Part shown: piece by piece, positions 29,386 to 56,339 of the stretch
Position numbering within the stretch: the stretch's first letter is position 1
Layout of the letters: every line of letters starts with the position of its first letter
Source: Pseudomonadota bacterium
GTDB lineage: Bacteria; Pseudomonadota; Gammaproteobacteria; Steroidobacterales; Steroidobacteraceae
NCBI GenBank assembly: GCA_021779535.1
Contig: JAJYAM010000002.1
Span: 15,926-79,448 of the forward strand
Length of the DNA: 63,523 bases
Direction: 5' to 3'
The notes under the pieces: generated by a model
What the model was told of the DNA's origin: nothing
Databases searched by the model: none
Seen by the model: the letters and a program-made list of their open reading frames with translations, nothing else
Program-made: the position numbers and the translations under genes

Positions 29386-29414
29386 TTGACAGCGGCCGCT
29401 GCGGCTAATATGGT
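29386..29414 (+). promoter_or_regulatory. Sigma70-type promoter of the paaK-padCD operon
   Basis: TTGACA at 29386-29391, a 17-bp spacer and TATGGT at 29409-29414. The -10 runs into the 20-bp island operator that begins at 29413, so bound repressor would block RNA polymerase. The same -35/-10 pair and geometry occur at the kor promoter. Confidence 0.7.
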
Positions 29415-29432
29415 ATTACAGTACCATAATAC
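29413..29432. promoter_or_regulatory. Island operator site A (paaK operon)
   Basis: Sequence GTATTACAGTACCATAATAC: GTATT and AATAC arms around a central GTAC dyad. One of five copies in the window, all at aromatic-operon promoters. Confidence 0.75.
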
Positions 29433-29510
29433 GATATTGGCTGAAGCTGGCCCTGGGGTCGACCGCCGCACGAGGCGGTGCGGCCGGGTCCCGAGGACTC
29501 GGGAGGGACG

Positions 29511-30839
29511 ATGTCGAGCACGTCGCGGATCTCAATCGCTTCGCGAGACGGAGGCGAAACCGATGCGGCGATCCGGTTCGGCGTCGACGAACTGCGCAGT
29601 CTCCAGCTTGGCCGTCTGAAGTGGTCGCTGCGCTATACCTACGACCGGGTCGAGCATTTTCGCCGTCGCTGCGTCGATGCGGGGGTCCATCCCGAGGACT
29701 TGCGCACGCTCGAGGATCTCGCGAAGTTCCCGTTGATGACGAAGGCCGATCTGCGGGACCACTATCCGTTCGGGCTCCTCGCGGTGCCGCGCACCGAATT
29801 GCGGCGCGTGCACGCGTCGAGCGGAACGACCGGACGGCCGACGGTGGTCGCCTATACGCGCCGCGACCTCGACCACTGGAGCGACCTCGTCGCGCGCTCA
29901 CTGCGGGTCGCGGGCGCGCGGCCCGGAGAGCTCGTGCACGTCGCGTTCGGGTACGGCTTGTTCACCGGCGGTCTCGGCGCACACTACGGCGCGGAGCGCC
30001 TCGGATGCGCCGTCGTCCCGATGTCCGGCGGCCAGACCGAGCGTCAGGTGCAGCTGATCGCGGATTTCAAGCCCGACATCCTGATGGCGACGCCGTCGTA
30101 CGCGCTCACGATAGCCGAGGAATTTGCGCGGCAAGGAATCGACGCGCGCGAATGCTCGCTGCGCGTCGGGTGCTTCGGCGCCGAGCCCTGGAGCGAACCG
30201 ATGCGCGCCGAGATCGAACGGGCGTTCGGGATCGACGCGGTCGACCTTTACGGGCTGTCGGAGTTGATGGGGCCCGGCGTCGCCTGCGAAAACGTCGAGA
30301 CGAAAGACGGGCCGATCCTGTGGGAGGACCACTTCTATCCCGAGATCATCGATCCGCAGACCGGCGCGCCGGTTCCCGACGGGCAGGAAGGCGAGCTGGT
30401 ATTGACGACGCTGACGAAGGAGGCGTTGCCGGTGATCCGATACCGGACCCGGGACCGCAGCCGCCTGTTGCCGCCGACGACCGGCGCGATGCGCCGGATC
30501 GCGAGGATCCGTGCGCGCACCGACGACATGATGATCGTGCGGGGCGTGAACGTCTTCCCGAGCCAGATCGAGGAACTGATCTTGAAGGTCCCGGGCCTTG
30601 CGCCGCATTACCTGATCGACCTGTCGCGCGACGGCCATCTCGACGTGATGCGCATCGAGGTCGAGATGACGGCGGACGCCGACGCCGGTGACGCCGAACG
30701 CACCCGGCGGGCCCAGGAGCTGCATCACCACGTGCGCACGTTCGTCGGGCTCGGCGCCGTGATCGAGGTTCGCCCGCCGGGAACGCTCGAGCGATCGGCC
30801 GGCAAGGCGCGCCGCGTTCGTGATCGGCGGCAGATTTGA
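29511..30839 (+). CDS. paaK: Phenylacetate-CoA ligase
   Basis: 442-residue AMP-forming ligase of the PaaK family, converting phenylacetate, ATP and CoA to phenylacetyl-CoA in the cytoplasm. The ATP-binding loop is HASSGTTGRPTVVAY, the mid motif GLSELMGPGVACE and the hinge YRTRDRSRLL are typical, and it ends in a PaaK-type C-terminal domain. GGGAGGG precedes the ATG at 29511. It heads an operon with a thioesterase and padCD, so it feeds anaerobic alpha-oxidation of phenylacetyl-CoA; no aerobic paaABCDE genes are present. Other aryl acids as substrate cannot be excluded. Confidence 0.88.
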   Translation: MSSTSRISIASRDGGETDAAIRFGVDELRSLQLGRLKWSLRYTYDRVEHFRRRCVDAGVHPEDLRTLEDLAKFPLMTKADLRDHYPFGLLAVPRTELRRVHASSGTTGRPTVVAYTRRDLDHWSDLVARSLRVAGARPGELVHVAFGYGLFTGGLGAHYGAERLGCAVVPMSGGQTERQVQLIADFKPDILMATPSYALTIAEEFARQGIDARECSLRVGCFGAEPWSEPMRAEIERAFGIDAVDLYGLSELMGPGVACENVETKDGPILWEDHFYPEIIDPQTGAPVPDGQEGELVLTTLTKEALPVIRYRTRDRSRLLPPTTGAMRRIARIRARTDDMMIVRGVNVFPSQIEELILKVPGLAPHYLIDLSRDGHLDVMRIEVEMTADADAGDAERTRRAQELHHHVRTFVGLGAVIEVRPPGTLERSAGKARRVRDRRQI

Positions 30840-30876
30840 TCGAGCGACCATCACCGGATCGAGCGAGGATACGCGC

Positions 30877-31284
30877 ATGAAGAACACGCTGAAGGCTGGA
30901 GTCACCAAACAGATCTCGCTGTCGATCGACGTGCCGCGCACGATCGACTTCCTCGGCGAGGCGCTGCGGGTGTACGCGACTCCGGCGCTGGTGCGGGATT
31001 TCGAGATCTTGTGCCGGGACTTGCTGCTCGAGCACTGCGATTCCGGCGAGGACTCGGTCGGCACGGGGATCTGCATCAGCCATACCGGCGCGACGCTGCT
31101 CGGGATGACCGTCGAACTGCGCGCCGAGGTGAAGGAAATCGACCGCCGACTCGTGAAGTTCGCGCTCTCGGCGCGCGACGGCGTGGAATCGGTGTCCGTC
31201 GGCGAGCATACGCGCGCGGTCGTCGAGGTGGAGAAGCTGCGCACGCGGCTCGCGGCGAAAGCCGCGGCGGCGAAGGCCGGCTGA
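30877..31284 (+). CDS. FlK-like acyl-CoA thioesterase
   Basis: 135-residue hot-dog-fold thioesterase resembling the fluoroacetyl-CoA thioesterase FlK group. The catalytic Thr, Glu and His typical of that group appear to align with YATPAL, DFEIL and ISHTGAT, with GMTVELRAEV after them. It stands between paaK and padC in the phenylacetate operon. A likely job is hydrolysis of phenylacetyl-CoA or another aryl-CoA to avoid trapping CoA, or removal of an inhibitory analogue; this is inference. The ATG at 30877 gives the normal family length. Confidence 0.75.
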   Translation: MKNTLKAGVTKQISLSIDVPRTIDFLGEALRVYATPALVRDFEILCRDLLLEHCDSGEDSVGTGICISHTGATLLGMTVELRAEVKEIDRRLVKFALSARDGVESVSVGEHTRAVVEVEKLRTRLAAKAAAAKAG

Positions 31285-31300: not shown

Positions 31301-31951
31301 ATGACCCGTTACGTGATGGTCGTCGATCTTCGCCGGTGCACCGGCTGCCAGACCTGCACGGCCGCGTGCAAGCACGCGAACGGCACCCCGCCGGGCGTGC
31401 AGTGGCGCCGGGTCCTCGACATCGAATCCGGCGTCTTTCCGAACGTGCGGCGTACGTTCGTCCCGGTGAGCTGCATGCATTGCGGATCGCCGCCGTGCCT
31501 CGACGTGTGCCCGACCGGCGCGACGTTCAAGCGAGACGACGGACGGGTTGCGATCAACTACGACGTGTGCATCGGGTGCGCGTATTGCGCGGTCGCCTGT
31601 CCGTACCAGCAGCGCTTCAAGACGCAGCATGCGCAGTTCGCGTACGGTGCGGATCCGACCGCTCCCGAGGAGCGGCAGTTCGACCCGGCGCGGCTCGGCG
31701 TCTCGACCAAGTGCACGTTCTGCAGCGACCGGATCGACCTTGCGCGCGAGACCGGGCAAGTGCCGGGCGTCGACCCGGACGTGACGCCCGCGTGCGTGAA
31801 CTCCTGCATCGCCAGCGCGCTGCACTTCGGCGACCGTGACGATCCGCAGAGCAACGTGTCGGCGCTGCTGCGCGAGAACCGGCATTTCCGGATGCACGAG
31901 GAGCTCGGGACCGACCCGGGCATCTATTACCTGACCGACACGGATGGTTGA
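31301..31951 (+). CDS. padC: Phenylacetyl-CoA:acceptor oxidoreductase, Fe-S subunit PadC
   Basis: 216-residue electron-transfer subunit of the DMSO-reductase family type with sixteen cysteines in four cluster motifs (C13-C16-C19-C23; C58-C61-C66-C70; C90-C93-C96-C100; C138-C141 with C165-C169). It passes electrons from the molybdenum subunit PadB to the membrane subunit PadD. No Tat signal is present. padC is 16 bp after the thioesterase and 3 bp before padD. The assignment to Pad, rather than another molybdoenzyme, rests on paaK, padD and the convergent padB. Confidence 0.85.
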   Translation: MTRYVMVVDLRRCTGCQTCTAACKHANGTPPGVQWRRVLDIESGVFPNVRRTFVPVSCMHCGSPPCLDVCPTGATFKRDDGRVAINYDVCIGCAYCAVACPYQQRFKTQHAQFAYGADPTAPEERQFDPARLGVSTKCTFCSDRIDLARETGQVPGVDPDVTPACVNSCIASALHFGDRDDPQSNVSALLRENRHFRMHEELGTDPGIYYLTDTDG

Positions 31952-31954: not shown

Positions 31955-32833
31955 ATGAGCGTTCCCAATTCCAGCCGGATCGCGCCGTGGCGACAGACCT
32001 ACTGGGACTGGCGCGCGGCCGGCAACTTCATCTTCGGCGGCACCGGCAGCGGGGCGCTGGTCTACGCCGCCGTGATCCCCGGGGCGGCGCCGATCCTCGG
32101 ACCGCTCGGCGCCGCCTTCGTCGTCTGCGGCTTGCTGTGCGTGTGGTTCGAGATCGGCCGGCCGTGGCGCGCGCTCAACGTGTTCAGCCGACCGCGCAGC
32201 TCGTGGATGTCGCGGGAGGCGCTGATCGCGCCGTGGCTGATCGCGACCGGTTCGCTCGCCGTGGTGCCGCGGCTCGCCGAGTTGCGCGTCGTCGCCGGCG
32301 CGTTCGCGCTCGCTTACGTCTACTGCCAGGCGCGGATGCTGAACGCCGCCCGCGGGATCCCCGCGTGGCGCCACCCGCGGGCGGTTCCGCTGCTGGTCGT
32401 GACCGGGCTCGCGGAGGGTGCGGGCGTCGGCGTGCTCGCCGGCTCCCTGTCCGCGCCGGCGATCGCCACGGCGAGCTGGATCGCATGGCCGCTGGCTGGA
32501 TTGATCGCGTTGCGGATCGCCGCGGTGATCGCGTATCGCCACGGCTTGGATCGCGACGGCGCGCCGCAAAACCTGCTGCGCGATCTGGCACGGGGCGCGC
32601 CGAAGCGCCTCGCCGTCGAGGTTGGCGCGATCGTCGCCGCGCTCGCGCAACTCGCGTGGCCGCGGGGGGGGAATCTGCCGATCGACGCCGCCGCGCTGCT
32701 CGCGGTCGCGGCCGGCTGGTCGTGGAAATACGCGATCGTCGTGCGCTGGTCCTACAACCAGGGCTTCGCACTGCCGCTGACGCCGGTGCGCGGCGTCGGC
32801 GTCAGCGGGCCGGGCGCGCGGCCCGGCTGGTGA
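31955..32833 (+). CDS. padD: Phenylacetyl-CoA:acceptor oxidoreductase, membrane subunit PadD
   Basis: 292-residue integral membrane protein with about eight hydrophobic helices, NrfD/PsrC-like in layout, starting YWDWRAAGNFIFGGTGSG. It would anchor the complex and deliver electrons to quinone. The last 32 bp overlap the end of padB on the other strand, a convergent arrangement. Confidence 0.82.
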   Translation: MSVPNSSRIAPWRQTYWDWRAAGNFIFGGTGSGALVYAAVIPGAAPILGPLGAAFVVCGLLCVWFEIGRPWRALNVFSRPRSSWMSREALIAPWLIATGSLAVVPRLAELRVVAGAFALAYVYCQARMLNAARGIPAWRHPRAVPLLVVTGLAEGAGVGVLAGSLSAPAIATASWIAWPLAGLIALRIAAVIAYRHGLDRDGAPQNLLRDLARGAPKRLAVEVGAIVAALAQLAWPRGGNLPIDAAALLAVAAGWSWKYAIVVRWSYNQGFALPLTPVRGVGVSGPGARPGW

Positions 32834-35561
32834 CCGGCGCCAGCCGGCGCAGCGCGACCCGGACGAGGTCCGAGCCCGAGCCCGTCGCGTCCGTCAGGGT
32901 CAGCGACATCGGCGCCACGGTGTTCAGACTCGGCGCGTGCAGGTCCTTCGCGTACGGCGTCGCCCAGTGGTCGAACTGGCCCACGATCACCAGCACGTCG
33001 GGTCGCACGCCCTGAACCACGATCGCCGGGCCCGAGGTCGTGCCCGTCGGCGATGCAACTTCGACCGGGTCGCCGTCCGCGATGCCGAGGCGCGCCGCGG
33101 TCGCGGCGTTGATCACGACGCCACGATGGCCGCGCACGTTCTGCGCGACCTCGTCCATCAGCTGGATCATCACGTTGCCGCCGGCGTGGTATTGCATGCT
33201 CTTGGTCGTGATCAGCCAGAACGGAAAGTCGTCCGGCGAGTAACCGCGCTGCCGCAGGTCCTCGTCCCAGATTCCGGGAAAGTCATGCCAGGTCGGCAGG
33301 AACCCGTATTCGGTGAGCTGCCGATCCCACCAGTGCACGCCGGTTTCGTGCAGGCGATTGCCGAGCTCCTTCCCCGAGCGGTTCAATCGTTCCTGATAGG
33401 GCAGCTCGAAACGCAAACCCAGCTTCGCGAGCGTCGGGTAGAGGTACCAGGCGCTCTGCGGGAACGGGCGCGTCATGAAGCCGTTCGCCTTGAACCAGTC
33501 GAGGTCGTGGCGTTCCTCGCCGCCGCTGAGCTCGGCGCTCGCGGCGAGACAGGTCGCGTTCCAGATCGCGTCGACCGAATTCGGCTCGTCGACCGGGAGC
33601 GAGTAGTCCCAGTTCGCGCCTTTCAGGCGAACCCCGCAGGTGCCGCGATTGATCGCGGCGTTGTACCCCTCGAGCACTCCCGTCCGGCGCGCCAGCTCGG
33701 TCGCGATCCAGGTGAAGTCGCGCGTGTCGCCGCGCGGCGCGACCGCCGGCTGGCGCAGCGCGAAGCCTTCGTGACGCCAGAACTGCTCGACGAATTTCGT
33801 CCGGCCGACCCGGATCAGCTGGGTGCTCTCGAGATCGGTCGCCTCCGGCAGCAGGATGTCCGCCATGTGGTTGGTTTCATCCGGCGTGTACGCGAAGCAC
33901 ACCGTGAACGGGAACGTCGCCATGGTGTCGGCGACCGAGCGGGTGTCCCAGAACGAGATCGCCGGGTTCGTCCGGTACGCGATCCAGACCTCGGGCTTGG
34001 TCGCCTTCGGCCAATGATCGACGTTGTGCTTCTGGAACATCCAGCTCAAGTGCGTGGGCCCCAGCGCCTGGCTCCATGCGCCGCTGTTGCCGGACAGCGG
34101 GACCAGGGTCCGGTGCGCGTTGCGCACGTGCGGGGTCTTCTCCCAATGGGCCGCGTCGGTCGCGTTCAGCGTGTGCTGCATGAAGCCGTCGGCGCCGGGC
34201 TGCACGCTCTTGTGGCGATCCTCGTGGAACTTGTTGATGCGCACCGTGGTGCCGAGCGTCCCACCGGGAACCTCGAGCGCGCCGACCAGCACCGCGAGCA
34301 CCGTCCGGGCCCACACGCACTCGTACGCGCCCCAGCCGTTGTTCACCGTCTTGCCGAGGGTCACCGACACCGGGCGGAACGGCATGGTCTCGCCGTCGAT
34401 CTCGATCGTGCGGCCGATGCAGGCCTCGTCGAGGTATTCGTTCGCGATCCGGCGGATCGTCGCCGCGCTCACGTCGCAAATCGCGCTGGCCCACTCCGGC
34501 GTGTACTCGCGCAGGTGCGCGAGCAACCGTTCGAACGCGGTCTCGGCCGCGATGCCGGTGTGCTCCCAGCGCTCCTCGTCGGCGCCGACCTCGACCGCGG
34601 CGGTGACGCGCGCCGGCCCCTCGAGCGCCGGCTCGGCCGCGGCGTCGTCGAACGGGACCGCGACCTGCCGCCGTGCGTCGAAGACCAGCGGCTTCAGGGT
34701 CGCCGGATCCCGCAGATAATAGCCATGCGGCCCGACGAGATACGGCGACGAGGTCATCTTCGCGAGGAACGGCAGATCCAGCCGGGAATGCGGGTGCTCG
34801 TGCAGCAGCACGTGGATCATCGCGAACATGAACGCGGGATCGGTCTTCGGCCTGATCGGGATCCATTCGGCCGAGGCCGCGCCGGAGATCGACAGGTGCG
34901 GCTCGATCTGGACGCGCCGCGCGCCGCGCGCACGCGCCGCCGCATGCCGCGCGGCCGCGCTCACGCCGCCGCTGACCTCGTTGTTCGCGCCGAACGAGAC
35001 GATGTAGTTGCTGAGCGGAGTGTCCGCGGATACGGTGAACGCCCGATGCCAGAATTCGCCGTACAGATGCTCCGAGTGGACGCACTTCACGCCTTGTCCG
35101 GAGCCGAAGCTGAAGTCGACCGGACCGAATGCGGACAGGAACGCGGGGAACGTGCCCATGTAGTTCGCCGGCGTGCCGCCGTGGCCGAAGGTCACCGCGA
35201 CGCGCGGCATCCCCGCTTCGTCCGTGAGGCCGCGCTGCCGGATCTCGGCGAGTTTCGCGGCGACGAGGTCGAGCGCGTCGTCCCAGGTAATCGGCACGAA
35301 CCCGGGGTCCTCGTCGCGGCCCTTGCGCGGATTCGTGCGTCGCATCGGCGTCAGGATCCGCGCCGGATGATAGGTCTTCTGGACGAGGCCGTAGGCCTTC
35401 ACGCACGGCTTGCCGTCACCGGGATGGATCCCCTTCGCGGCGAAATTCGGGCCGACCTCGGTTGCGACTCCGTCGACGACCTTCACCGTGAGCAGGTCGG
35501 GGCCGGCCACACAGTTGTAGCAATACGTGGGAACGGTACGCGCGGCGGGCGATCGCGTCAT
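32802..35561 (-). CDS. padB: Phenylacetyl-CoA:acceptor oxidoreductase, molybdenum subunit PadB
   Basis: 919-residue molybdopterin oxidoreductase carrying out the alpha-oxidation of phenylacetyl-CoA to phenylglyoxylate. The N-terminus has CYNC and then KPCVKAYG for an iron-sulfur cluster; the usual third cysteine of a CxxCxxxC motif is not seen, an Asp (GPD) stands near that place. Domain order (4Fe-4S, MGD-binding domains, C-terminal dinucleotide-binding domain with HAGGNVMIQ) is complete. No twin-arginine signal, fitting a cytoplasmic active site. GGGGAG precedes the ATG at 35561. It is transcribed toward padCD and apart from iorA. Confidence 0.85.
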   Translation of the reverse strand: MTRSPAARTVPTYCYNCVAGPDLLTVKVVDGVATEVGPNFAAKGIHPGDGKPCVKAYGLVQKTYHPARILTPMRRTNPRKGRDEDPGFVPITWDDALDLVAAKLAEIRQRGLTDEAGMPRVAVTFGHGGTPANYMGTFPAFLSAFGPVDFSFGSGQGVKCVHSEHLYGEFWHRAFTVSADTPLSNYIVSFGANNEVSGGVSAAARHAAARARGARRVQIEPHLSISGAASAEWIPIRPKTDPAFMFAMIHVLLHEHPHSRLDLPFLAKMTSSPYLVGPHGYYLRDPATLKPLVFDARRQVAVPFDDAAAEPALEGPARVTAAVEVGADEERWEHTGIAAETAFERLLAHLREYTPEWASAICDVSAATIRRIANEYLDEACIGRTIEIDGETMPFRPVSVTLGKTVNNGWGAYECVWARTVLAVLVGALEVPGGTLGTTVRINKFHEDRHKSVQPGADGFMQHTLNATDAAHWEKTPHVRNAHRTLVPLSGNSGAWSQALGPTHLSWMFQKHNVDHWPKATKPEVWIAYRTNPAISFWDTRSVADTMATFPFTVCFAYTPDETNHMADILLPEATDLESTQLIRVGRTKFVEQFWRHEGFALRQPAVAPRGDTRDFTWIATELARRTGVLEGYNAAINRGTCGVRLKGANWDYSLPVDEPNSVDAIWNATCLAASAELSGGEERHDLDWFKANGFMTRPFPQSAWYLYPTLAKLGLRFELPYQERLNRSGKELGNRLHETGVHWWDRQLTEYGFLPTWHDFPGIWDEDLRQRGYSPDDFPFWLITTKSMQYHAGGNVMIQLMDEVAQNVRGHRGVVINAATAARLGIADGDPVEVASPTGTTSGPAIVVQGVRPDVLVIVGQFDHWATPYAKDLHAPSLNTVAPMSLTLTDATGSGSDLVRVALRRLAPVTSRAARPAR

Positions 35562-35595: not shown

Positions 35596-35615
35596 GTAAT
35601 TCGGTACAATAATAC
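35596..35615. promoter_or_regulatory. Island operator site B (padB / iorA divergent region)
   Basis: Sequence GTAATTCGGTACAATAATAC, the most diverged of the five copies (one arm base changed). It lies 34 bp upstream of padB and 74 bp upstream of iorA. A -10-like TATTAT on the minus strand (35609-35614) and TACAAT on the plus strand (35605-35610) fall inside it, so one site could control both directions. No good -35 was found. Confidence 0.6.
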
Positions 35616-35689: not shown

Positions 35690-37828
35690 ATGGCGGAACG
35701 ATCGTTTTCCAAGGAAATCGAGAAGCTGCGTCTCGGTGACGGCGAGGAGTTCCGCGGGGAAGGCATCCTCGCGGTCACCAAGGCGCTGCTGCAGTCGGGG
35801 GTTGGTTACGTCGGCGGCTACCCGGGCGCACCGATCTCCCACTTGATGGACGTGCTCTCCGAAGCGCACGGCCTGCTCGACGATCTCGGCGTGCAATTCG
35901 TCGCCAACGCGTCCGAAGCCGCCGCGGCCGCGATGCTCGCGGCATCCGTGAATTACCCCATCCGCGGCGCGGTGACCTGGAAGTCGACCGTCGGCACGAA
36001 CGTGGCCTCCGATGCGCTCGCGAACCTCGCGTCCGGCGGGGTCACCGGCGGCGCCCTGATCATCGTCGGCGAGGACTACGGCGAGGGCTCCTCGATCCTG
36101 CAGGAGCGCTCGCACGCGTTCGCGATGAAATCGCAGATGTGGCTGCTGGATCCGCGGCCGCGGCTGCCGAGCATCGTCGAGGCCGTCGAGCGCGGCTTCG
36201 AGCTGTCGGAGGCCTCGCACACGCCGGTGATGCTCGAGCTCAGAATCCGCGCGTGCCACGTCTACGGGCGATTCCGCGCGAAGGCGAACCGGTCGCCGGC
36301 GTTCTCGGTCCAGGACGCGCTCGATCACGTCCGTCGCGACGCCTCGCGGATCGTGCTGCCCCCGGCGAGCTTCGAGCACGAGCGCGAGAAGGTCGAGCGA
36401 CGCTGGCCGGCGGCCCTCGAATTCATCCGCTCGCGGCGGATGAACGAATTCATCGACGGCCCGCGCGAGGACCTCGGGGTCATCGTCCAAGGGGGCTTGA
36501 CCAACGCGCTGCTCCGCGCACTCGAACTCGCCGGGGTCGCCCGGCCCGACGGGTCGACCGACCTGCCGATCTACGTGCTCAACGTGACCTATCCGCTGCT
36601 GGAAGACGAGGTCGTGCGTTTTTGCGCCGGGAAGCGCGCGGTGCTCGTCGTCGAAGAGGGGCAGCCGGAATTCATCGAGCAAGCCTTGAACTCGATCCTC
36701 CGCCACGCCGACTCGCCGACCAAGCTGGTCGGCAAGGCGGTGCTGCCCCGGGCGGGCGAATACACCGGCCCGGCGTTGCTGAGCGGCATCGAACGCTTCC
36801 TCGGCGAGCACGCGCCGGCCGCGCCGCGCGCGCACGCCGCCTCGGGCACGGCCGGCAGGATCTCGAGCGAGGCGGCGGCGCTCGCGCCCGCGATCCCGCC
36901 GCGACCCGTGGGCTTCTGCACCGGCTGTCCGGAGCGGCCGATCTTCGCCGCGATGAAGCTCCTGCAGCGCGACATCGGCCCGCTGCACGTCAGCTGCGAC
37001 ATCGGCTGTCATCTGTTCTCGATCCTGCCGCCGTTCAACATCGGCAACACGACGATGGGCTACGGCCTCGGCGCCGCCGGCGCGGCCGCGCTGCGCTCGG
37101 ATCGCGGCAAGCGACCCGTCGCGGTCATGGGCGACGGGGGCTTCTGGCACAACGGGCTCACGTCCGGCGTCGGCAACGCGGTGTTCAACCGGTCCGACCC
37201 GGTGCTCGTCGTCGTCGACAACGGCTATGCGGCCGCGACCGGCGGACAGGACGTGCCGTCGACGCGCACGCCGAGCAAGACCCGCAGTACCCGCCATCCG
37301 ATCGCGACCGCCGTGCAGGGCGTCGGGGTCGACTGGGTCCGGGTCGTCGAGCACACCTACGACGTCGCGAAGATGCGCGACACGCTGCGCGAGGCGATTG
37401 CGAGTCCGGGCACCGGGCCGAAGGTCGTGGTCGCGGCGTCCGAGTGCATGCTCAATCGACAGCGCCGCGAGAATCCGCAGCGCAAGCGGAGAATCGCCGG
37501 GGGCGAGCGCGTCGCGCTGGACCGCTTCGGTGTCGATTCGGACGTGTGCACCGGCGATCACTCGTGCATCCGGCTGTCCGGCTGCCCGTCGCTCACGATC
37601 AAGCCCCGCGTCGGCCGGCCGCCGGCGGCGACCGTCGATCGCAGCTGCGTCGGCTGCGGATTGTGCGGCGAACTCGCGGACACGGCGGCGCTGTGTCCGT
37701 CGTTCTACCGCATGCGGGTGCTCCACAACCCGACGCGCTGGGAGCGGCTGCGCGCCGGCGTGAGCGGCGCGATCATCGGCTGGCTCCAGCGGCGTGCCGC
37801 GACCCGAAGGCTGCGCCATGCATTCTGA
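35690..37828 (+). CDS. iorA: Indolepyruvate/arylpyruvate:ferredoxin oxidoreductase, alpha subunit
   Basis: 712-residue TPP-dependent 2-oxoacid oxidoreductase subunit that converts aryl pyruvates (indolepyruvate, phenylpyruvate) to arylacetyl-CoA. The pyrimidine-binding domain begins GYPGAPISHLMDVL, the TPP motif is GDGGFWHNG...N, a CTGCPERPIF cluster motif is in the middle and a ferredoxin-like tail has DRSCVGCGLC. GAGGG precedes the ATG at 35690; an ATG 12 bp upstream is in frame. It would feed phenylacetyl-CoA from phenylalanine into PadBCD. Confidence 0.82.
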   Translation: MAERSFSKEIEKLRLGDGEEFRGEGILAVTKALLQSGVGYVGGYPGAPISHLMDVLSEAHGLLDDLGVQFVANASEAAAAAMLAASVNYPIRGAVTWKSTVGTNVASDALANLASGGVTGGALIIVGEDYGEGSSILQERSHAFAMKSQMWLLDPRPRLPSIVEAVERGFELSEASHTPVMLELRIRACHVYGRFRAKANRSPAFSVQDALDHVRRDASRIVLPPASFEHEREKVERRWPAALEFIRSRRMNEFIDGPREDLGVIVQGGLTNALLRALELAGVARPDGSTDLPIYVLNVTYPLLEDEVVRFCAGKRAVLVVEEGQPEFIEQALNSILRHADSPTKLVGKAVLPRAGEYTGPALLSGIERFLGEHAPAAPRAHAASGTAGRISSEAAALAPAIPPRPVGFCTGCPERPIFAAMKLLQRDIGPLHVSCDIGCHLFSILPPFNIGNTTMGYGLGAAGAAALRSDRGKRPVAVMGDGGFWHNGLTSGVGNAVFNRSDPVLVVVDNGYAAATGGQDVPSTRTPSKTRSTRHPIATAVQGVGVDWVRVVEHTYDVAKMRDTLREAIASPGTGPKVVVAASECMLNRQRRENPQRKRRIAGGERVALDRFGVDSDVCTGDHSCIRLSGCPSLTIKPRVGRPPAATVDRSCVGCGLCGELADTAALCPSFYRMRVLHNPTRWERLRAGVSGAIIGWLQRRAATRRLRHAF

Positions 37829-39423: not shown

Positions 39424-39945
39424 TCAGCGGTCGCCCGGCGCGTCGGGATCGCCGGGACGGGCCGCGCTCGCTGGGGGGTAACGCTCCAGCAACCGGTGGC
39501 ACAGCGCGACGTGCTCGCGCTCCTCCGCGGCGAAGCTCGTCGCCAGGTCGCGCACGGTCCGGTCGACCTTCGACGCCGCGAGGTCGGTGTAGAACGCGAG
39601 CGCGCGTTCCTCGGCCGCGAGCGCCATGCGCAACGCCTCGTGCGGCGACATGTCGTAGCGCGCCGCGTACAGATCCACGGACTCCGGGCTGTCGGCCTTC
39701 CAGGGACCGATCGGGCCGCCATCGTCGCCGACGCCGATCGCGCCGGCGAGTTCCCGGATCTTGTCCGCGTGCAAGCGCTCGGCCCGGGCGAGGTCGCGGA
39801 ACATCCGCGCGAGATCGAGGTTGTTGTGCGTCTCCATCTGGTCGGCGAGCATCGCGTAACGCTCCGCCGCGTCGGCCTCGATCCGATGGGCGATCCCGTA
39901 GAGCGCCGCCACCGAGGTCACCGGCGGTACGTTCGCGCCGCTCAT
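39424..39945 (-). CDS. Ferritin-like / rubrerythrin-type di-iron protein
   Basis: 173-residue four-helix protein with repeated ExxH or E...H pairs (RIEADAAERY, ERLHADKI, AAEERALAFY, EEREHVALCH) as in the ferritin-like di-iron fold. No rubredoxin domain. It would handle peroxide or oxygen, or store iron. It is the last gene of the korAB operon, overlapping korB by four bases, which suggests protection of the oxygen-sensitive oxidoreductase. Confidence 0.75.
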   Translation of the reverse strand: MSGANVPPVTSVAALYGIAHRIEADAAERYAMLADQMETHNNLDLARMFRDLARAERLHADKIRELAGAIGVGDDGGPIGPWKADSPESVDLYAARYDMSPHEALRMALAAEERALAFYTDLAASKVDRTVRDLATSFAAEEREHVALCHRLLERYPPASAARPGDPDAPGDR

Positions 39946-42540: not shown

Positions 42541-42562
42541 GGTATTCTAGTACCAGAATACC
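42541..42562. promoter_or_regulatory. Island operator site C (kor operon)
   Basis: A 22-bp almost perfect palindrome with the 20-base core GTATTCTAGTACCAGAATAC at 42542-42561 and one mismatched pair. It lies 45 bp upstream of korA and abuts the -10. Confidence 0.78.
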
Positions 42563-42724: not shown

Positions 42725-42737
42725 GGTACCCTAATAC
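42718..42737. promoter_or_regulatory. Island operator site D (had-bcr operon)
   Basis: Sequence GTATTCTGGTACCCTAATAC, 55 bp before the had start and lying over the -10. A second arm-like ACCAGAATA follows at 42736-42744. Confidence 0.78.
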
Positions 42738-48275: not shown

Positions 48276-49627
48276 ACGCACAGGCGATGAAGACCTTCGT
48301 CGGCATCGATCTCGGGTCGACCACGACGAAGTCGGTGCTGCTCGACGAGAGCCAGCGGGTGATCGGCCGCGGCATCACCAATTCGCGCTCCAATTACGCG
48401 ACCGCGGCGCGGGTCGCGGGCGAGGAGGCGAGAGTCGACGGACGCTTCACCCTGATCCGCCGGACGCTCACCGAGGGCGGGCTGCTCGGCGAGGGGCTCG
48501 AGGACTTCCTCGCGGACCTCGAGCGCTCGTTCCGTCTCGAGCAGTTCATCGAACGCCTCGACGACCTCGAGTCCACCTGCATCGGCCAGCTGAAGGGCGG
48601 CCGGTTCGCGGCGCTGGAGGATCGGCTGCGCGAGGCGCTCGTGGAGACCTTCCGGCGGCTGCGGGGCGAGGCGCCGGAGATGTTCGCGCCGGGCGCGAAG
48701 CGCAAGTCCGACTTCTTCCGCGACATCGCCGGCGCGCGGTTCTACGCCAACGCCGAGACCGTCGCGCGCGAGGGCGCGTTCCCGTACGAGGTCCTGCTGA
48801 ACGCATACGACAAGGCGATCATCGACGTCGAGAACCGGCCGCCGTCCGGGGGCTTGAACGATCATTTCCGGCGCGCGCTCGCGCGGGTGCTGGCGTCGGC
48901 CGACGGGGTCGGGGCCGGCGCGGCCGACGGGATCCGGGCGGGCGTCGAGTCGTCGATCGGAATCGATCTCGAGGAGACCTATCTCGTCGGCACCGGCTAC
49001 GGCCGCGTGACCCTGCCGTTCTCGAAGGAGCACATCCGATCCGAGATCCTGTGCCACGGACTCGGCGCACACCTGATGTATCCGCGCACGCGGACCGTGC
49101 TCGACATCGGCGGCCAGGACACCAAGGGCATCCAGGTCGACGACCACGGCATCGTCACCAGCTTCCAGATGAACGATCGGTGCGCGGCGGGTTGCGGCCG
49201 CTATCTCGGCTACATCGCCGACGAGATGAACATGGGTCTGCACGAGCTCGGTCCGATGGCGATGAAATCCGACCGGCCGGCGAGGATCAACTCGACCTGC
49301 ACGGTGTTCGCCGGCGCGGAGTTGCGCGACCGCCTGTCGCTCGGCGAGAAGCGCGAGGACATCGTCGCGGGACTGCATCGGGCGATCATCCTGCGCGCGA
49401 TCTCGATCATCTCGAGATCCGGCGGCGTCACCAACGAATTCACGTTCACCGGCGGGGTGGCGAAGAATCAGGCGGCGGTACGCGAACTGCGGCAGGTCGT
49501 GAACGAGAACTACGGCGAGGTTGCGATCAACATCAATCCCGACTCGATCTATACGGGCGCACTCGGTGCAGCCGAATTCGCGCGACGGGCATACGAAGGC
49601 GGGGCGAGACCGGAGGGCAGAGCATGA
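48272..49627 (+). CDS. bcrA: Benzoyl-CoA reductase ATPase subunit A
   Basis: 451-residue ATPase/electron-activating subunit of the BadF/BcrA/HgdC family. The phosphate-1 motif [13 protein letters not shown] is at the N-terminus, the interface cluster cysteines are in [13 protein letters not shown], and adenosine-binding [10 protein letters not shown] is near the C-terminus. An insertion of about 170 residues after the first motif separates it from BcrD. GTG at 48272 with AGGAG upstream overlaps the bcrB stop; ATG at 48287 is the alternative. Confidence 0.94.
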
Positions 49628-50472
49628 CGACGATCACGGCAGGCATCGATGTGGGCACCGGCGCCGTGAAGGCGGTGCTGATGCGGGTGCAGGACGGCAA
49701 CACCGAGTGGCTGTCGCGCTCCACGCTGAGGATCCGGCAGCGCGATCCGATCGAACTCGCGCGCCTGTGTTTCGACCAGGTGCTCGAGGACGCCAAGATC
49801 GGCGAGAAGCAGGTCAACTACGTCGCGACGACCGGCGAGGGCGAGAGCGTGCCGTTCCACACCGGGCACTTCTATTCGATGACGACCCACGCCCGGGGAG
49901 CGATCTATCTCGATCCCGAGGCGCGCGCGGCGCTCGACGTCGGTGCGCTGCACGGCCGCGCGATCTCGATGGACGAACGCGGCAAGGTGTTGAAATACAA
50001 GATGACGAGCCAGTGCGCGTCCGGATCGGGGCAGTTCCTCGAGAACATCGCGCGCTATCTCGGAATCGCGCAGGACGAGATCGGCGGCCTGTCGAAACAG
50101 GCGGACAACCCGGAGGTCGTCTCGTCGATCTGCGCGGTGCTCGCGGAGACCGACGTGATCAACATGGTCTCGCGGGGGATCTCGCCGCAGAACATCGTCA
50201 AGGGCATTCACCTGTCGATGGCCAGCCGGCTCGTGAAGCTGCTCAAATCGATCGACGCCAGCACCGGCGTCGTGCTCGCCACCGGGGGCCTCGCGCTCGA
50301 TGCGGGACTCGTCGATGCGCTCAACGAGGAAACCGGTAACATGAAGGGCATGTCGGCGAGGATCCGCGCCCACGCGGATTCGCCCTTCGCCGGCGCGCTC
50401 GGCGCGGCACTCTGGGGTGCCTATCGCTACGATCGACTGGTCGAACGCGGCGAGATCGCGCGCGCGGCTTGA
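49624..50472 (+). CDS. bcrD: Benzoyl-CoA reductase ATPase subunit D
   Basis: 282-residue second ATPase subunit, shorter than BcrA. It shows [13 protein letters not shown], the cluster motif [12 protein letters not shown] with a further conserved [11 protein letters not shown] cysteine, and [10 protein letters not shown]. BcrA and BcrD share a [4Fe-4S] cluster at their interface and couple hydrolysis of two ATP to electron transfer. ATGA overlap with bcrA. Confidence 0.94.
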
Positions 50473-50871: not shown

Positions 50872-51411
50872 CTAGAGGACCCGATCGAACGCGAGCGTCC
50901 GCGACGGCGCGAAACCGCAGTGGCCGAAGAACGCGAGCATGTCGTGGTCGCTCCAGTCGACCTCGGTCACGACGCGTTCCACGCGCAACGACGCCAGGTT
51001 CGCGAACAGCTGCGCCAGGAGCGCGCGGCCGACGCCGCGCGAACGATACTCCGGCGAGACGCCGAGGGTGTCGATCTCGGCGGCGGGATCGGTCCGGCCG
51101 AACTCGCCGAGACCGACGCGCGCGGTCACGAACCCGACCACGCGCCCGTCGAGCTCCGCGACCAGCGACACACGCAGGTCCGACTCCTCGAGCGTCTCGG
51201 AGAACTTGGCGGCGAGGTAGGCGCCGCGATCGCGCCCGGTGATCTCGCGATCGATCGCGGTCATCGCAGTCACGTCGTCGTCGCGGATCGTGCGGATCGG
51301 TATGCGGTCGCGGGCGAGCGGACCGTAATCCGGCGCGGGCGGGCGGCCGTAGTCGACCTCGGTGGGCTCGCCGACGCGTTGTGGAATTCCGGCGTTCGTG
51401 TTCTTCGGCAT
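50872..51411 (-). CDS. GNAT family N-acetyltransferase (paralogue 1)
   Basis: 179-residue GNAT. A 37-residue polar N-terminus precedes the fold (IPIRTIRDDDVTAMTAID); the acetyl-CoA loop is in SPEYRSRGVGRALL. It shares the segment GEFGRTDP before the core strand with paralogue 2 and, less exactly, with paralogue 3. Last gene of the hcr operon. By analogy with BadL of Rhodopseudomonas palustris it may acetylate an aromatic amine or acid analogue, but protein acetylation is an alternative. AGGAG precedes the ATG. Confidence 0.78.
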   Translation of the reverse strand: MPKNTNAGIPQRVGEPTEVDYGRPPAPDYGPLARDRIPIRTIRDDDVTAMTAIDREITGRDRGAYLAAKFSETLEESDLRVSLVAELDGRVVGFVTARVGLGEFGRTDPAAEIDTLGVSPEYRSRGVGRALLAQLFANLASLRVERVVTEVDWSDHDMLAFFGHCGFAPSRTLAFDRVL

Positions 51412-51428
51412 CGTGACCCGCTCCTGGT

Positions 51429-51920
51429 TCAAATCTCGTCGGGATTCTCGTCGAAGGGCACCGCGACGGGCCGCTCGATCACCAGGCGGCTCGAGAGCTC
51501 GAAGCCCGCGCCCGCGAAGAAGCGCAGCAACTCGTCCATCGTCCAGTCCGCTTGCGAGTGCAGGCGGGGCAGGCCCCGAGTGCGCGCTTCGGCCGTGATC
51601 GCCTCCATCAGCGCCCGTCCGCAACCCTGGCCGCGGCTCGCGGGATCGACGCCGAGCACATCGATCACGGCGCTCGAATCGGTTCGTCCGAACTCGCCGC
51701 GCTGCACGCTCGCGAGCACGAAGCCCGCGAGGCGTCCATCGACCTCGGCGCCGAACTGCAGGAACTCGGCGGGATCCGCCGCGTGCATCCCGAGCCGCTT
51801 CTCCAGGAAGCGCCGGCGCGATCGTCCGACGTGAAGGCGATCGATCTCGACCAGGCGATCGAGGTCCGCGTCGCGCAGCGCGCGGACGCGGGTCTTAACG
51901 GGCGCGGGATTGGCGGTCAT
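51429..51920 (-). CDS. GNAT family N-acetyltransferase (paralogue 2)
   Basis: 163-residue GNAT without the N-terminal extension of paralogue 1. Core motifs: VRALRDADLDRLVEID, then GEFGRTDSSAVIDVLGV and the acetyl-CoA loop ASRGQGCGRALM. It stands 9 bp after the hemerythrin gene and 17 bp before paralogue 1, so a tandem duplication followed by divergence is likely. GAGG precedes the start. Substrate not known. Confidence 0.78.
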   Translation of the reverse strand: MTANPAPVKTRVRALRDADLDRLVEIDRLHVGRSRRRFLEKRLGMHAADPAEFLQFGAEVDGRLAGFVLASVQRGEFGRTDSSAVIDVLGVDPASRGQGCGRALMEAITAEARTRGLPRLHSQADWTMDELLRFFAGAGFELSSRLVIERPVAVPFDENPDEI

Positions 51921-51929: not shown

Positions 51930-52421
51930 TCAAAGGTTACCAGCGTATTCGGCTTGCAGCCGCGCATCGGTCTCGGTGTCCAGAGACTCCTCGAGCAGCG
52001 GCAACAACATCTGTTCCTCGATCTCGACGTGCGCGCGCAACAACGCGCACAGCTCGGCGGCGAGGATCCGGTACTCGGCCCACGCGGCCGGGGTGAATCC
52101 ACTGCGTTGCGCGGTGCGGCCGAGCGTCGCGAGCTGCGCGGCGACCGGTCGGATCGCGGCGTGCTCTGCCAGGAGTTGCGCGACGATCTCCTCCTCGCCA
52201 TCGTCCGCGAGACGCTCGAACAGGGGTCGCTCCTCGAAATCGAAGTGCCGGCCGAGCTCGCCGCCGAGCGCGGCGGTCGCGTCGCGGAGCAGCCGCGCGG
52301 TCGCAGGGTCCTGTGCGGCGGGCAGCGGTGCCGCCCCGGTGGTCGCTTGCGCCAGCCGATCGATGAACGCGACGGTCGCGACGTGTTCCTCGTGCAGTAC
52401 CTCGACGATCCGACTGTTCAC
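51930..52421 (-). CDS. Hemerythrin-domain protein
   Basis: 163-residue four-helix di-iron protein. Candidate ligands are in VLHEEHV, RHFDFEERPLF, AEHAAI and AHVEIEEQMLLPLL, the H...HxxxE...H...HxxxE/D pattern of hemerythrins. It may bind oxygen or handle reactive species beside the oxygen-sensitive HcrCAB. GTG start overlaps the hcrB stop and has GGAGG five bases upstream. Confidence 0.82.
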   Translation of the reverse strand: MNSRIVEVLHEEHVATVAFIDRLAQATTGAAPLPAAQDPATARLLRDATAALGGELGRHFDFEERPLFERLADDGEEEIVAQLLAEHAAIRPVAAQLATLGRTAQRSGFTPAAWAEYRILAAELCALLRAHVEIEEQMLLPLLEESLDTETDARLQAEYAGNL

Positions 52422-53437
52422 GGGGCCTCCGTTGGGGGTGCGCCGACCTCGGCGGCCGCCGGCGCGGCGAGCGCGCCCAGCAGCCGGCGGGTGAGTGCGG
52501 CGGCGATCGAACGCCGATGATTCGCCGGGAACAGGGTCGTGCGCATCGGGCGCACCTGCTTCGCGACCAGCTTCTCGGCCGCGGTCAGCACGGACTCGTC
52601 GACGCGACGGCCGAGGAGCGCGGCGGTGCCATCGATCAGCAGCGGCCGCGAGTTCGTGCCGGTGACCGAGATTCGCAGCGCGTTCAATCGTCCGCCCTCG
52701 GTCCGGCAGGCGATCGCGACGCCCGCGAGCGGAAAGTCGAACGAGCGCCGAATGCGCTCCTTCAAGTATCCCGAGCGCGCGGCCGACGCCGGTACCTCGA
52801 TCGCGGTCACGAGCTCGTCGGCAGCGAGGCGCAGGTGTGCGCGCCCTTCCTCGTGGTACAGGTCGGCGCAGGCGACGCGACGACGACCCCCGGGGCCGGC
52901 GATTTCGATCTCGGCGTCGAGTGCGATCAAGGCCGGCGCGAGGTCGCCGCTGAAGGCGGCGTGACAGCGTTCGCCTTCGGGGGCGACGTGACACACCTCG
53001 CCGCCGCTCTTCAGGCACGCGCCGTTCGCGGCGCGCCACCATGCGCTTTGATTGAAATAGATGCAGCGCGTCTGCAGGCACAGGTTGCCGCCGACCGTCC
53101 CGAGCCGGCGGTGTCCGGGCGCGGCGACCGAGGCCGCCGCCGCGTGCAAGGCCGCGTGGCGGCTCGCGATCGCGGGATCCTCCGCGAGCCGCGCGAGGCG
53201 CACCAGCGCGCCGATGCGCGTGCGATCGCCGGTCGTGCGAATTTCCTCGAGCTCGGCGATGCCGGTGATGTCGATCAGCACCGTTGGCGCGAGCAGGCCG
53301 CGGCGCAGGTTCACCAGCAGATCGGTGCCGCCGGCGAGAACCTCGTGCTGCGGGCATTCGGCGCGCGCGGCGATCGCGGCCTCGACCGTCGCCGGTCGGA
53401 TCACGCGCACGCGCGGCAGCGGCAACGGCGCGGTCAT
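52418..53437 (-). CDS. hcrB: 4-hydroxybenzoyl-CoA reductase, FAD / 4Fe-4S subunit
   Basis: 339-residue FAD-binding subunit of the xanthine-oxidase family. It carries the extra [4Fe-4S] loop special to this enzyme: C125, C141, C149 and C158 have spacings 16, 8 and 9, the same as the ligands I recall for Thauera HcrB (122, 138, 146, 155). FAD motifs AGGTDLL and TVGGNLC are present. The start overlaps hcrA by four bases. This loop is the best evidence that the complex is HCR and not another hydroxylase. Confidence 0.92.
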   Translation of the reverse strand: MTAPLPLPRVRVIRPATVEAAIAARAECPQHEVLAGGTDLLVNLRRGLLAPTVLIDITGIAELEEIRTTGDRTRIGALVRLARLAEDPAIASRHAALHAAAASVAAPGHRRLGTVGGNLCLQTRCIYFNQSAWWRAANGACLKSGGEVCHVAPEGERCHAAFSGDLAPALIALDAEIEIAGPGGRRRVACADLYHEEGRAHLRLAADELVTAIEVPASAARSGYLKERIRRSFDFPLAGVAIACRTEGGRLNALRISVTGTNSRPLLIDGTAALLGRRVDESVLTAAEKLVAKQVRPMRTTLFPANHRRSIAAALTRRLLGALAAPAAAEVGAPPTEAP

Positions 53438-55755
53438 CGTCCGCCGCCCGCCAAGGCGTCGAGTCGCTCGCGACGCCGGCGGGCGACCACGGCGTCGAGC
53501 ACCCGGTCGGGAGTCGCCGGCAACACGTCGAGATCGACCCCGATCGCGTCCGCGATCGCCGCGACCAGCGCCGGCGCGAACGAGGCCAGCGCGCCCTCGC
53601 TCGCCTCCTTCGCGCCGAACGGCCCGTTCGGATCGATGCTTTCGACGATCTGCGCGTCGATCGGCGGCGAGTCCAAGCTCGTCGGCATGCGGTATTCGAG
53701 GAAGCTCGCGTGCGCGGGCATCCCGTCCAGGTAGCGAGTCTCTTCCATCAGCGCCTGACCCATGCCCATCCAGACCGCGCCTTCGATCTGGCCGCGGACC
53801 GCGAGCGGGTTGATCGCGAAGCCGCAGTCGAGCGCGACCCAGACGCGGTCGACCGAGATCCGTCCGGTGTCTTCGTCGACGCTGACCTCGACGACCTGGG
53901 CCGCGTAGCTGAAGCCCATCGTCGAACCGACCGCGCCGCCGCGATGCTTGCCACCCTGCGCGTCCGGTGGACAGGTGAAGGTGCCCTTCACGGTCAGGGT
54001 GCCTTGGTCGACGAGCGCGGCCTTGACCGCCTCCCCGAACGAGATCTCCCGGCCGGCCGCGCTCAGCGAGCGGAACCGGCCGTCCGCGCAGTCGATGTCC
54101 GCCGGGTCGCGTTCGAGACGGCGCGCGGCGGCTTCGGTCAACAGGCGGCGCAGGCGCCGGGCGGCGTCGATCGCCGCGTTGCCGACCATGAACGTGATGC
54201 GCGAGGAGTACGCGCCGTTGTCCTTCGGCGTGGTCGCGCTGTCGGCGGCGATCACCCGGACCTGCTCGATGGGCAGACCGAGCGTCTCCGCGACCGCGAT
54301 CGCGACCATCGTCGACGAGCCCTGGCCGATGTCGGCGGCTCCGGTGAACGCGGTCACCGATCCGTCCCAGTCGACCTTCACGTTCACGACCGCGTGCGGT
54401 TCGCCGGTCCAGTGGATCGGTTTCGCCGCGCCGCTCACGTAGTGGGAACACGCCATGCCGAGACCCTTGCCGCGCGGGAGCCGGCCGCGGCGTGTCCTCC
54501 ACCCGCTGGCGGCCTCGACGCGATCGAGGCACTCGGCGAGCCCGTAGCTGTTGATCGCGAGCTCGTTCAGCGTCCGGGTCGGGGCGTGCAGCAGGTTTCG
54601 ACGACGCACCTCGAACGGGTCGAGCCCGAGCTCCCGCGCCATCCGGTCGAGCAGCACCTCGAACGCGTGGCGGGTGTCGACGCTGCCGTGGCCGCGCATC
54701 GCGCCGCAGGGCGGGAGGTTCGCATATACGCGATAGCCGTCGTACTTGACCGCGGGCAGGTCGTACAGGCCGTGCAGCAGCGATCCGGCGTACAGGATCG
54801 TGATCACGCCGTACCCGGCGTATGCGCCGCCGCGCTGCACGACCTCGCATTCGCAGGCGCGCAGCCGTCCGTCACGGCCGAGGCCGAGCTTCACGCGGAT
54901 CCGCGTCTGCGGCCGGGCGCGGTGGGTGATGAACGTCTCCTCGCGCGAGAGCTCCATCGAGACCTTGCCGCCGGCGGCGCGCGCGAGCATCGCGGTCACG
55001 AGCTCGAAATTCAGGACCTCCACGCGGGCGCCGAAGCCGCCGCCGACGAACGGCTTGATCACGCGGATCCGCGACTCGTCCATTTCCAGGCAGCGCGCGA
55101 GCATCATGTGCAGGTAGAACGTCACCTGCGAGACGCTCTGCATCGTCAGCCGCCCGGTGGACGGATCGAATTCGGCGAGCGCCGCATGCGGCTCGATCTG
55201 CGCGTGGTTGACCTCCGCACAATCGATCACCTCCTCGCGCACGAGGTCCGCGGTCGCGAAGCCGGCGGCGACGTCACCGAAGGTGTGATGGACCTCGCGC
55301 TCGAGATTGCCGGGCTTGTCGTCGTGGATCCGGACCGCGTCCGCCGCGCGAGCCTGGTCCGCCTCGTAGTAGGCGGGCAGCTCGCGGACCTCGAATTCGA
55401 TCAGCGACAGCGCGCGTGCGGCCGTTTCGGCGTCGATCGCCGCGACCGCGGCGACGGGTTCGCCTCGATAACGGACTTTGCCGCGCGCGAGCGGGTATTC
55501 GTTCATCGCGATCGGCAATACGCCGTACGGCACCCGGCAATCCTCACCGGTCAGGATCGCGACCACCCCGGGCAGTCGTCGCGCCCGCTCGACGTCGACC
55601 CGCAGGATCTGCGCGTGGCTGCAGGGGCTGCGGAGGATCCGTCCGACGAACGCGCCGCGATGGTCGAGATCGGCGGTATAGCGTGCCCGACCGGTCACTT
55701 TGTCGATCCCGTCGATCAACGGGACGCCATCGCGGGTTCCGGCGAGCTTCGTCAT
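53434..55755 (-). CDS. hcrA: 4-hydroxybenzoyl-CoA reductase, molybdenum subunit
   Basis: 773-residue molybdopterin subunit that removes the para hydroxyl group of 4-hydroxybenzoyl-CoA to give benzoyl-CoA. Seen are GGGFGARVE near the middle, the pterin segment [12 protein letters not shown], and the catalytic glutamate region [10 protein letters not shown] close to the C-terminus. The ATG at 55755 is chosen; a GTG two codons upstream is also in frame. Only a weak ribosome site is visible. Central gene of hcrCAB. Confidence 0.92.
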
Positions 55756-55764
55756 CGGCACCGC

Positions 55765-56256
55765 CTACGCGCCGGCTTCCACGGCCGCACGCACCGATTC
55801 GACGATCTTCACGTATCCGGTGCAGCGGCACAGATTGCCGGCGAGTGCCTCGCGGATCTCCGCCTCGCTCGGATCCGGACGCCGGCGCAGCAGTCCTTCG
55901 GCCGCCATGATCATGCCGGGCGTGCAATAGCCGCATTGGGCGCCGAGCTTCTCGTGAAACGCCCGCTGCAACCGATGCAGCCGTCCGCCCGCGCCGAGCC
56001 CTTCGATCGTTTCGACCGAGCGACCCTCGCAGCGGACCGCGAGCGTGAGGCAGGACGGAACGGGCTCATCGTCCACCAGGACCGTGCAGGCCCCGCACTC
56101 CCCGCCGTCGCATCCGGTCTTGGTGCCGGTCAAGCCGGCGGTCTCGCGCAGGTAATCGACGAGCAGCTGATCGTCCGCGACCGCGTCTTCGCGCCAGCGC
56201 CCATTCACGCGGATTCGTACCAGGCGTTTCCCTGGAACCGGCCCAGACTCGAACAT
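55765..56256 (-). CDS. hcrC: 4-hydroxybenzoyl-CoA reductase, 2Fe-2S subunit
   Basis: 163-residue subunit with two [2Fe-2S] sites: plant-type C49, C54, C57, C69 and the helical C108, C111, C143, C145. GAGGTG lies before the ATG at 56256. First gene of a six-gene operon (hcrC, hcrA, hcrB, hemerythrin, two GNATs) that starts downstream of operator E. Confidence 0.92.
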
Positions 56257-56319
56257 ATGATGCACCTCGCGCCAGCGGCGTGCGGTCCCTCGGAATCTGG
56301 TGTCCCGCAAGCTTCTAGG

Positions 56320-56339
56320 GTATTATAGTACCGGAATAC
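56320..56339. promoter_or_regulatory. Island operator site E (hcr / GNAT-Rrf2 divergent region)
   Basis: Sequence GTATTATAGTACCGGAATAC. Inside it lie a consensus TATAAT on the minus strand (56327-56322, toward hcrC) and TATTAT on the plus strand (56321-56326, toward the GNAT-Rrf2 operon). The -35 regions are poor in both directions. The regulator gene lies in the operon controlled, which suggests autoregulation. Confidence 0.75.

Follow-up and report, generated by a model that had tools for sequence, protein, structure and literature searches.

The closest described counterparts of the system reported here, a set of predicted operators and their regulator in an island of aromatic-catabolic genes from a Pseudomonadota bacterium (Steroidobacteraceae), are the repressor BadM and its partner BadL of Rhodopseudomonas palustris. 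The original study on BadM is reportedly that of Peres and Harwood in 2006, and Hirakawa in 2015 is said to have assigned two operons jointly to BadR and BadM. In a later paper (PMC6191541; VanDrisse & Escalante-Semerena 2018), BadM is a repressor, BadL makes acetamidobenzoates, and these release BadM from the badDEFGAB promoter, a release known from R. palustris only; the probe bound by purified BadM is the badC–badD interval, from -191 to +21 of badD. BzdR/BoxR, MbdR, BgeR, and BamVW are described as regulators of benzoyl-CoA-type anaerobic aromatic pathways (PMC4424350). They control the same pathway type and are taken to be distinct from BadM, judged by their names and descriptions. The Rrf2 proteins with solved structures, namely IscR, NsrR, CymR, and one that we take to be RsrR, share the sequence family (profile matches of 23.7–48.9 bits), whereas the BadM group has no Fe-S cysteine triad. 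Known IscR and NsrR sites differ from the 20-bp GTA-centred palindrome described below.

The stretch analysed, hereafter the window, spans 63,523 nucleotides (assembly GCA_021779535.1, contig JAJYAM010000002.1, positions 15,926 to 79,448 of the forward strand). It carries five copies of a 20-bp palindrome, which we predict, with a probability of about 0.88, to be bound as operators by a BadM-type Rrf2 repressor, the product of 56964–57395. As in R. palustris, the predicted regulator is an Rrf2 protein without an Fe-S triad, is adjacent to a GNAT acetyltransferase, and has a benzoyl-CoA reductase operon as a predicted target. Different from the R. palustris protein, which is described on badDEFGAB, it would serve eight units that carry sites, the additional ones covering phenylacetate, 4-hydroxybenzoate, benzoate-CoA ligase, and badLM itself.

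Predicted operators and promoters of the aromatic island

The five palindromes, referred to as operators 1 to 5, lie at 29413–29432, 35596–35615, 42542–42561, 42718–42737, and 56320–56339. Each matches GTAWT-N3-GTAC-N3-AATAC, to which no strand is assigned, with 0 mismatches. Thirteen of the 20 positions (1, 2, 3, 5, 9–12, and 16–20) are invariant in all five, as a preliminary description of this DNA had reported, and of the 10 symmetric pairs, each operator has 6 to 9 that match. The 20-mer can be read as two overlapping GTA-N6-TAC palindromes with a common GTAC. At up to three mismatches the window holds 14 matches against 0.52 expected, a number reached by none of 100 shuffles.

Exact matches in the organism's own genome (2,931,490 bases in 127 contigs, 98.97% complete) are restricted to the five window sites, all within one 27-kb island. 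The genome-wide scatter that the preliminary description had set against its own proposal is thus not seen for exact sites. That description had found no further copies by eye; there is a sixth, off-island site with two mismatches, GTATTATAGGAGCAGAATAC at C80:46561, which precedes the best benzoate-CoA ligase of the genome, an extra target that the same description had suggested. This site is one of three 2-mismatch places beyond the five; as the reversed pattern yields seven within two mismatches in the same genome, a 2-mismatch match alone is background. The site lies about 70 bp upstream of the stretch that TIGR02262 matches (757 bits), with the start of the open reading frame (ORF) 55 bp downstream of it, and the ligase is the only one of 16 TIGR02262 matches in the genome above the family cut-off. 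Its core reads GGAG instead of GTAC, and it would therefore be a weaker site.

When a matrix trained on 23 sites from other genomes was applied to the window, the five operators took the top five ranks, scoring 28.6–36.8. The next score in the window, 14.2, belongs to an 8-bp-shifted overlap of operator 1, the own benzoate-CoA ligase site scores 25.0, and the maximum on the reversed window is 3.1. No window site went into the matrix, yet common ancestry still links the two, because the training set includes orthologous promoters (the paaK site of genome G006 has the sequence of operator 1).

The promoter geometry was as previously described: TTGACA-17-TATGGT precedes paaK (29386–29414, plus strand) and kor (42588–42560, minus strand), and TTGACG-17-TATTCT precedes had-oah-dch-bcr (42696–42724, plus strand). 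At both paaK and kor the operator starts at base 5 of the -10 box, overlapping the last two bases of the paaK -10. Operator 4 covers the had -10 box, and the padB promoter, TTCACT-16-TATTAT, has its -10 inside operator 2. No convincing FNR/AadR-like box was found near the five operators, the single 2-mismatch match being at 56427; no sign was therefore seen of a second activator like the one in R. palustris.

Weak matrix matches offset by exactly 8 bp overlap operators at 29405–29424, 42550–42569, 42726–42745, and 56312–56331. Operator 4 has an additional half-site, TATTCTGGTA-N6-TACCAGAATA at 42719–42744, reaching 42745, and tandem sites offset by 8 bp also occur in loci L084 and L085 near 13213–13226. 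The shifted overlaps at the operators possibly accommodate two dimers.

Conservation and co-occurrence with badM

We compared 118 genomes including the own one, eight of which carry a BadM orthologue (at least 63% identity). With T required at position 4, exact sites occur in seven of the eight BadM genomes and in one of the 110 others. Leaving the own genome out, the counts are 6/7 and 1/110 (Fisher p = 1.6e-8, kinship ignored). Allowing one mismatch, all eight BadM genomes have sites, versus 8 of the 110 others, the latter being near the reversed-pattern rate (11/118). The gene hcrA is found in 7 of the 118 genomes, all with BadM and an exact site. Five genomes carry bcrB: three of them have BadM and sites, and the other two (G029 and G065) have neither a detected BadM nor a site within one mismatch. 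bcrB was detected in only three of the eight BadM genomes; G009, G022, and G048 have other bcr genes near contig ends, and none was seen in the examined stretches of G006 and G013.

The seven other BadM genomes contain 25 sites within one mismatch, 21 of which are at island-type promoters. The hcrC/badL promoter carries a site in G006, G009, G013, G019, and G022, the had and kor promoters in G009, G019, and G058, and the paaK promoter in G006 and G019. The padB/ior site is present in G019 and has two mismatches in G006. Sites precede the hemerythrin gene and a ligase in G009, and benzoate-CoA ligase in G006 and G019. G058 has sites at badL, the hemerythrin gene, had, kor, and padB (ior, if there, is beyond the examined stretch). 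The motif is present at orthologous promoters in relatives that keep the genes, and the preliminary description had named its absence there as evidence against the proposal.

The close relatives are metagenome-assembled genomes labelled Steroidobacteraceae, Gammaproteobacteria, or Proteobacteria. Their alignment shows operator 5 (hcr–badL) to be identical in the own genome, G006, G019, and G022, and operator 1 (paaK) in the own genome, G006, and G019. Operator 2 (padB–ior) is identical in G019 and differs by one base in G006, operator 3 (kor) differs among the own genome, G019, and G058 at N3 positions only, and operator 4 (had) has counterparts in G019 (one arm base changed) and G058. The paaK hexamers are conserved in G006 and G019 around a variable spacer, and the kor -35 and the TTGAC of had in G019 and G058; the -35 boxes of paaK and kor and the TTGAC of had are invariant while the kor–had spacer diverges strongly. 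At hcr–badL and padB–ior the contrast is modest, because the relatives are alike throughout.

A genome-collection scan with an alignment of eight BadM proteins gave 80 named loci (973 kb), including seven that apparently duplicate genomes of the above set and are not independent. In them the motif occurs 10 times without a mismatch, 38 times with one, and 47 times with two, compared with no occurrence of the reversed motif within two mismatches. Leaving out five distant Bacteroidales loci retains 75 loci with 85 places, of which 73 fall between -60 and 400 bp upstream of homologues of hcrC, badL, benzoate-CoA ligase, HHE (hemerythrin-like), GNAT, oah, korA, FlK, or SDR. The remaining 12 are not before tested genes, and none is inside one. 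The genes tested were homologues of window proteins and of the own ligase; a few assignments are weak, two having a 29% korA match as their only match.

The badL promoter was usable in 71 of the 75 loci (no badL match in two, a contig edge in two; row L148 is unreliable), and its best match has 0–2 mismatches in 31 and 0–4 in 60. Mononucleotide shuffles of these promoters, 20 each, gave a mean of 5.7 mismatches; as the best of 20 mostly had 3–5, only the 0–2-mismatch group is clear locus by locus. The operator is at badL's own promoter in loci from both Alpha- and Gammaproteobacteria. A divergent form, ATAAATCGGTACCACAATGC, recurs in L096, L097, L101, L119, and L121.

In Xanthobacteraceae-group loci, badLM lies beside a different molybdenum hydroxylase (29–30% identical to HcrA), and operator-like sites with 2–3 mismatches are near badL at L189:11125, L190:2178, and L191:9262.

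The predicted regulator pair and the genes of the island

The proposed binder, P0001 (56964–57395, plus strand), has a full-length Rrf2 domain (PF02082, 81.6 bits; TIGR00738, 94.0 bits; both above cut-off). Reference loci were called Rhodopseudomonas-like by their gene order, which is an ADH-like gene, badDEFG, badA, then badM and badL, and hba/hcr. P0001 is 45% identical over 139 aa to BadM of two such Rhodopseudomonas-like genomes and is the best of four Rrf2 matches in the own genome, the next-best having 37% over 83 aa. The GNAT gene preceding it (56432–56962, plus strand, predicted start; PF00583) encodes a protein 43% identical to BadL of locus L186, and a badL homologue is on the same strand in 73 of the 75 BadM loci. 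Judged by sequence, the pair matches badL–badM of Rhodopseudomonas. The preliminary description had proposed one repressor, probably the Rrf2 protein, for all operons and for itself; the presence of the motif follows the Rrf2 gene and supports that prediction of binding, and the assignment to BadM and BadL goes beyond it. Operator 4 stands at the benzoyl-CoA reductase promoter, a predicted BadM target.

The motif also reaches a promoter with published BadM binding. Loci L186 and L187, two closely related Rhodopseudomonas-like loci of 19.9 kb each, contain as their only match within three mismatches GCATTCYAATACTAGATTAC before badD (L186:2042–2061, three mismatches). An FNR/AadR-like box, TTTGATCCGCATCAAA, ends about 10 bp ahead of this match, which itself lies about 75–94 bp before the badD ATG (start codon as read here). 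This position is within the badC–badD interval and so ties the motif to the BadM-bound promoter, with an imperfect match.

Fe-S sensing of the IscR/NsrR type was considered for P0001 and rejected, since P0001 has no cysteine and none of 59 usable homologues from the 75 loci has a CX2-8CX3-8C triad in residues 81–120. A second, weak Rrf2-like match (37 bits) is on the same contig outside the window (G000:C125:100529–100879); within the 13 kb surrounding it (L047), no place matches the operator with two mismatches or fewer. A distant Rrf2 gene also occurs in five Bacteroidales/Bacteroidetes loci, and in four of them (30–35% identity in these four) a related palindrome, ATATTTGCGTATTCAAATAC, is found just upstream of that gene (L154:7911, L155:7935, L156:1471, and L157:1398).

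Genes were assigned by Pfam and NCBIfam scans of selected ORFs in about 22–63 kb of the window. As operators 2 and 5 lie between divergent units, namely padB (minus) and iorAB (plus), and hcrCAB (minus) and badL–badM (plus), the five operators serve seven units: paaK, padB, ior, kor, had-bcr, hcr, and GNAT–Rrf2. The benzoate-CoA ligase site makes eight. The earlier claim of a site at every aromatic operon stands for these seven units within the ORFs checked, which lie in the last two-thirds of the window.

The paaK unit (plus strand) encodes phenylacetate-CoA ligase (29511–30839, predicted start; TIGR02155, 654.9 bits, above cut-off), an FlK-like thioesterase (30820–31284; PF22636), a padC/D-like 4Fe-4S protein (31301–31951; Fer4 families), and an NrfD-like membrane subunit (31955–32833; PF03916, E=1e-4, below the curated cut-off). 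The padB-like molybdopterin oxidoreductase (32802–35561, minus strand, predicted start) matches PF00384 and PF01568 on its minus frame, and the plus frame has no match. It is followed by an iorA-like TPP enzyme (35690–37828, plus; TIGR03336, 276 bits, below its cut-off) and an iorB-like gene (37794–39317, plus; NF006179, 599.5 bits, above cut-off). On the minus strand are korB-like (39942–40778, approximate start; TIGR02177, 265.9 bits) and korA-like (40772–42496, predicted start; TIGR03710, 533.5 bits) genes, both above cut-off.

The benzoyl-CoA unit (plus strand) comprises had for 6-hydroxycyclohex-1-ene-1-carbonyl-CoA dehydrogenase (42793–43896, predicted start; TIGR03201, 534.8 bits), oah for 6-oxocyclohex-1-ene-1-carbonyl-CoA hydratase (43932–45032; TIGR03200, 607.7 bits), dch for cyclohexa-1,5-dienecarbonyl-CoA hydratase (45050–45793; TIGR03189, 354.4 bits), and bcrCBAD for benzoyl-CoA reductase (45810–50472). 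bcrB, bcrA, and bcrD match TIGR02260, TIGR02259, and TIGR02261 above cut-off; bcrC was placed by position, the frame tried has no Pfam match, and a 48% homologue precedes bcrB in L186. The 4-hydroxybenzoyl-CoA reductase genes hcrCAB (52418–56250, minus strand, approximate hcrC start) match TIGR03193, TIGR03194, and TIGR03195 above cut-off. An SDR dehydrogenase gene (57430–58155, plus strand), possibly in the badLM operon, has a homologue after badM in G006, G019, G022, and G058.

Downstream of hcrCAB on the minus strand are the HHE gene (51930–52420; PF01814), whose homologues have operator sites, and one or two GNAT genes (50872–51920; PF00583), which close the hcr operon. They recur as members of the predicted regulon and have their own operator in several alphaproteobacterial loci.

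Mode of regulation and alternatives

The overlap of operators with the -10 boxes of paaK, kor, had, and padB makes steric repression with autoregulation the most likely mode. A BadM dimer on the 20-bp site would cover the -10 box and the start region and block RNA polymerase, so that the genes for phenylacetate (paaK, padB, and probably ior and kor), 4-hydroxybenzoate (hcr), and benzoate (the ligase and had-oah-dch-bcr) would be off together. badLM would be repressed by its own product, and this autoregulation would give a fast switch. By homology, BadL would acetylate aminobenzoate, the resulting acetamidobenzoate would release BadM, and all units would open together. The inducer is the weakest step of this mechanism.

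That the palindromes arose by chance or belong to a repeat family unrelated to regulation has a negligible probability: what speaks for it does not go beyond the background of 2-mismatch matches, and against it are the 14 matches in the window where 0.52 were expected, the sites kept over diverged spacers, and the empty reversed search of 973 kb. It is highly improbable that a different transcription factor encoded elsewhere binds the sites and BadM is merely a neighbour. A genome with sites and no detected BadM, G005, would fit such a factor, but motif presence follows BadM across the 117 other genomes, the site is at badL's own promoter in two proteobacterial classes and is missing from the two bcr-carrying genomes that lack BadM, and the selected ORFs scanned in the 22–63 kb region include no other DNA-binding family. 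Some Rrf2 proteins both activate and repress. BadM could thus bind as an activator, or act as repressor or activator depending on the promoter, and the lack of a sigma-70 box at 56320 would agree with this; the operators cover or touch the -10 at four promoters, which is a repressor's position, and the R. palustris protein is a repressor (PMC6191541), which leaves activation improbable.

The inducer leaves more room. BadM might be released by an intermediate of the pathways, for example benzoyl-CoA, or through a redox signal, instead of by the BadL product; the probability of this is low but appreciable. Other anaerobic aromatic regulators respond to acyl-CoAs, as MbdR does to 3-methylbenzoyl-CoA (PMC4424350), and R. 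palustris BadM was released in vitro by 10 mM 2-acetamidobenzoate and not by 5 mM (PMC6191541). Against an intermediate, badL shares the operator and stays with badM on the same strand in nearly all loci; against a redox signal is the cysteine-free P0001 with its triad-less homologues.

Several observations weigh against repression by BadM at all these sites. A sigma-70-like promoter pair was looked for at 56320 (operator 5) and none was found, so the -10 overlap argument fails there. G005 has an exact and a one-mismatch site before two benzoate-CoA ligases, and BadM, hcrA, and bcrB were not detected in it; its assembly is 91% complete, which may explain the undetected BadM. Conversely, G048 has BadM and no exact site. 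Among the seven BadM genomes other than the own one, four of their 25 sites lie off island-type genes, namely both one-mismatch sites of G048, one before a glutamate-synthase/ferredoxin-reductase-like gene in G009, and one near an IclR-type regulator in G058. Eleven of the 71 badL promoters have a best match of 5–7 mismatches, which is shuffle level and no recognisable site. As for the Rhodopseudomonas-like loci, L186 and L187 have no site at their badL and hba promoters, and a third locus, L188, has no match within three mismatches, its badD promoter being outside the examined stretch.

Regulators of this type have been described before; what appears new within the literature searched is the defined operator, the wider regulon, and the presence in Gammaproteobacteria. 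A published BadM operator sequence was not found in that literature, which excludes the original BadM papers and a 2009 review. We tentatively suggest that anaerobic aromatic catabolism in Alpha- and Gammaproteobacteria may have BadL–BadM as an ancient master switch. One private acetylated aminobenzoate would then open the routes for phenylacetate, 4-hydroxybenzoate, and benzoate at the same time by way of a conserved 20-bp operator of two overlapping palindromes, and the single-operon role in Rhodopseudomonas may be a reduced remnant. For uncultured Gammaproteobacteria, the analysis provides a concrete predicted BadM operator and a predicted eight-unit regulon that joins three peripheral aromatic pathways under one predicted switch. 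The motif can be used to find anaerobic aromatic genes in assemblies, and the BadL idea of an acetylated side molecule as inducer becomes testable outside Rhodopseudomonas.

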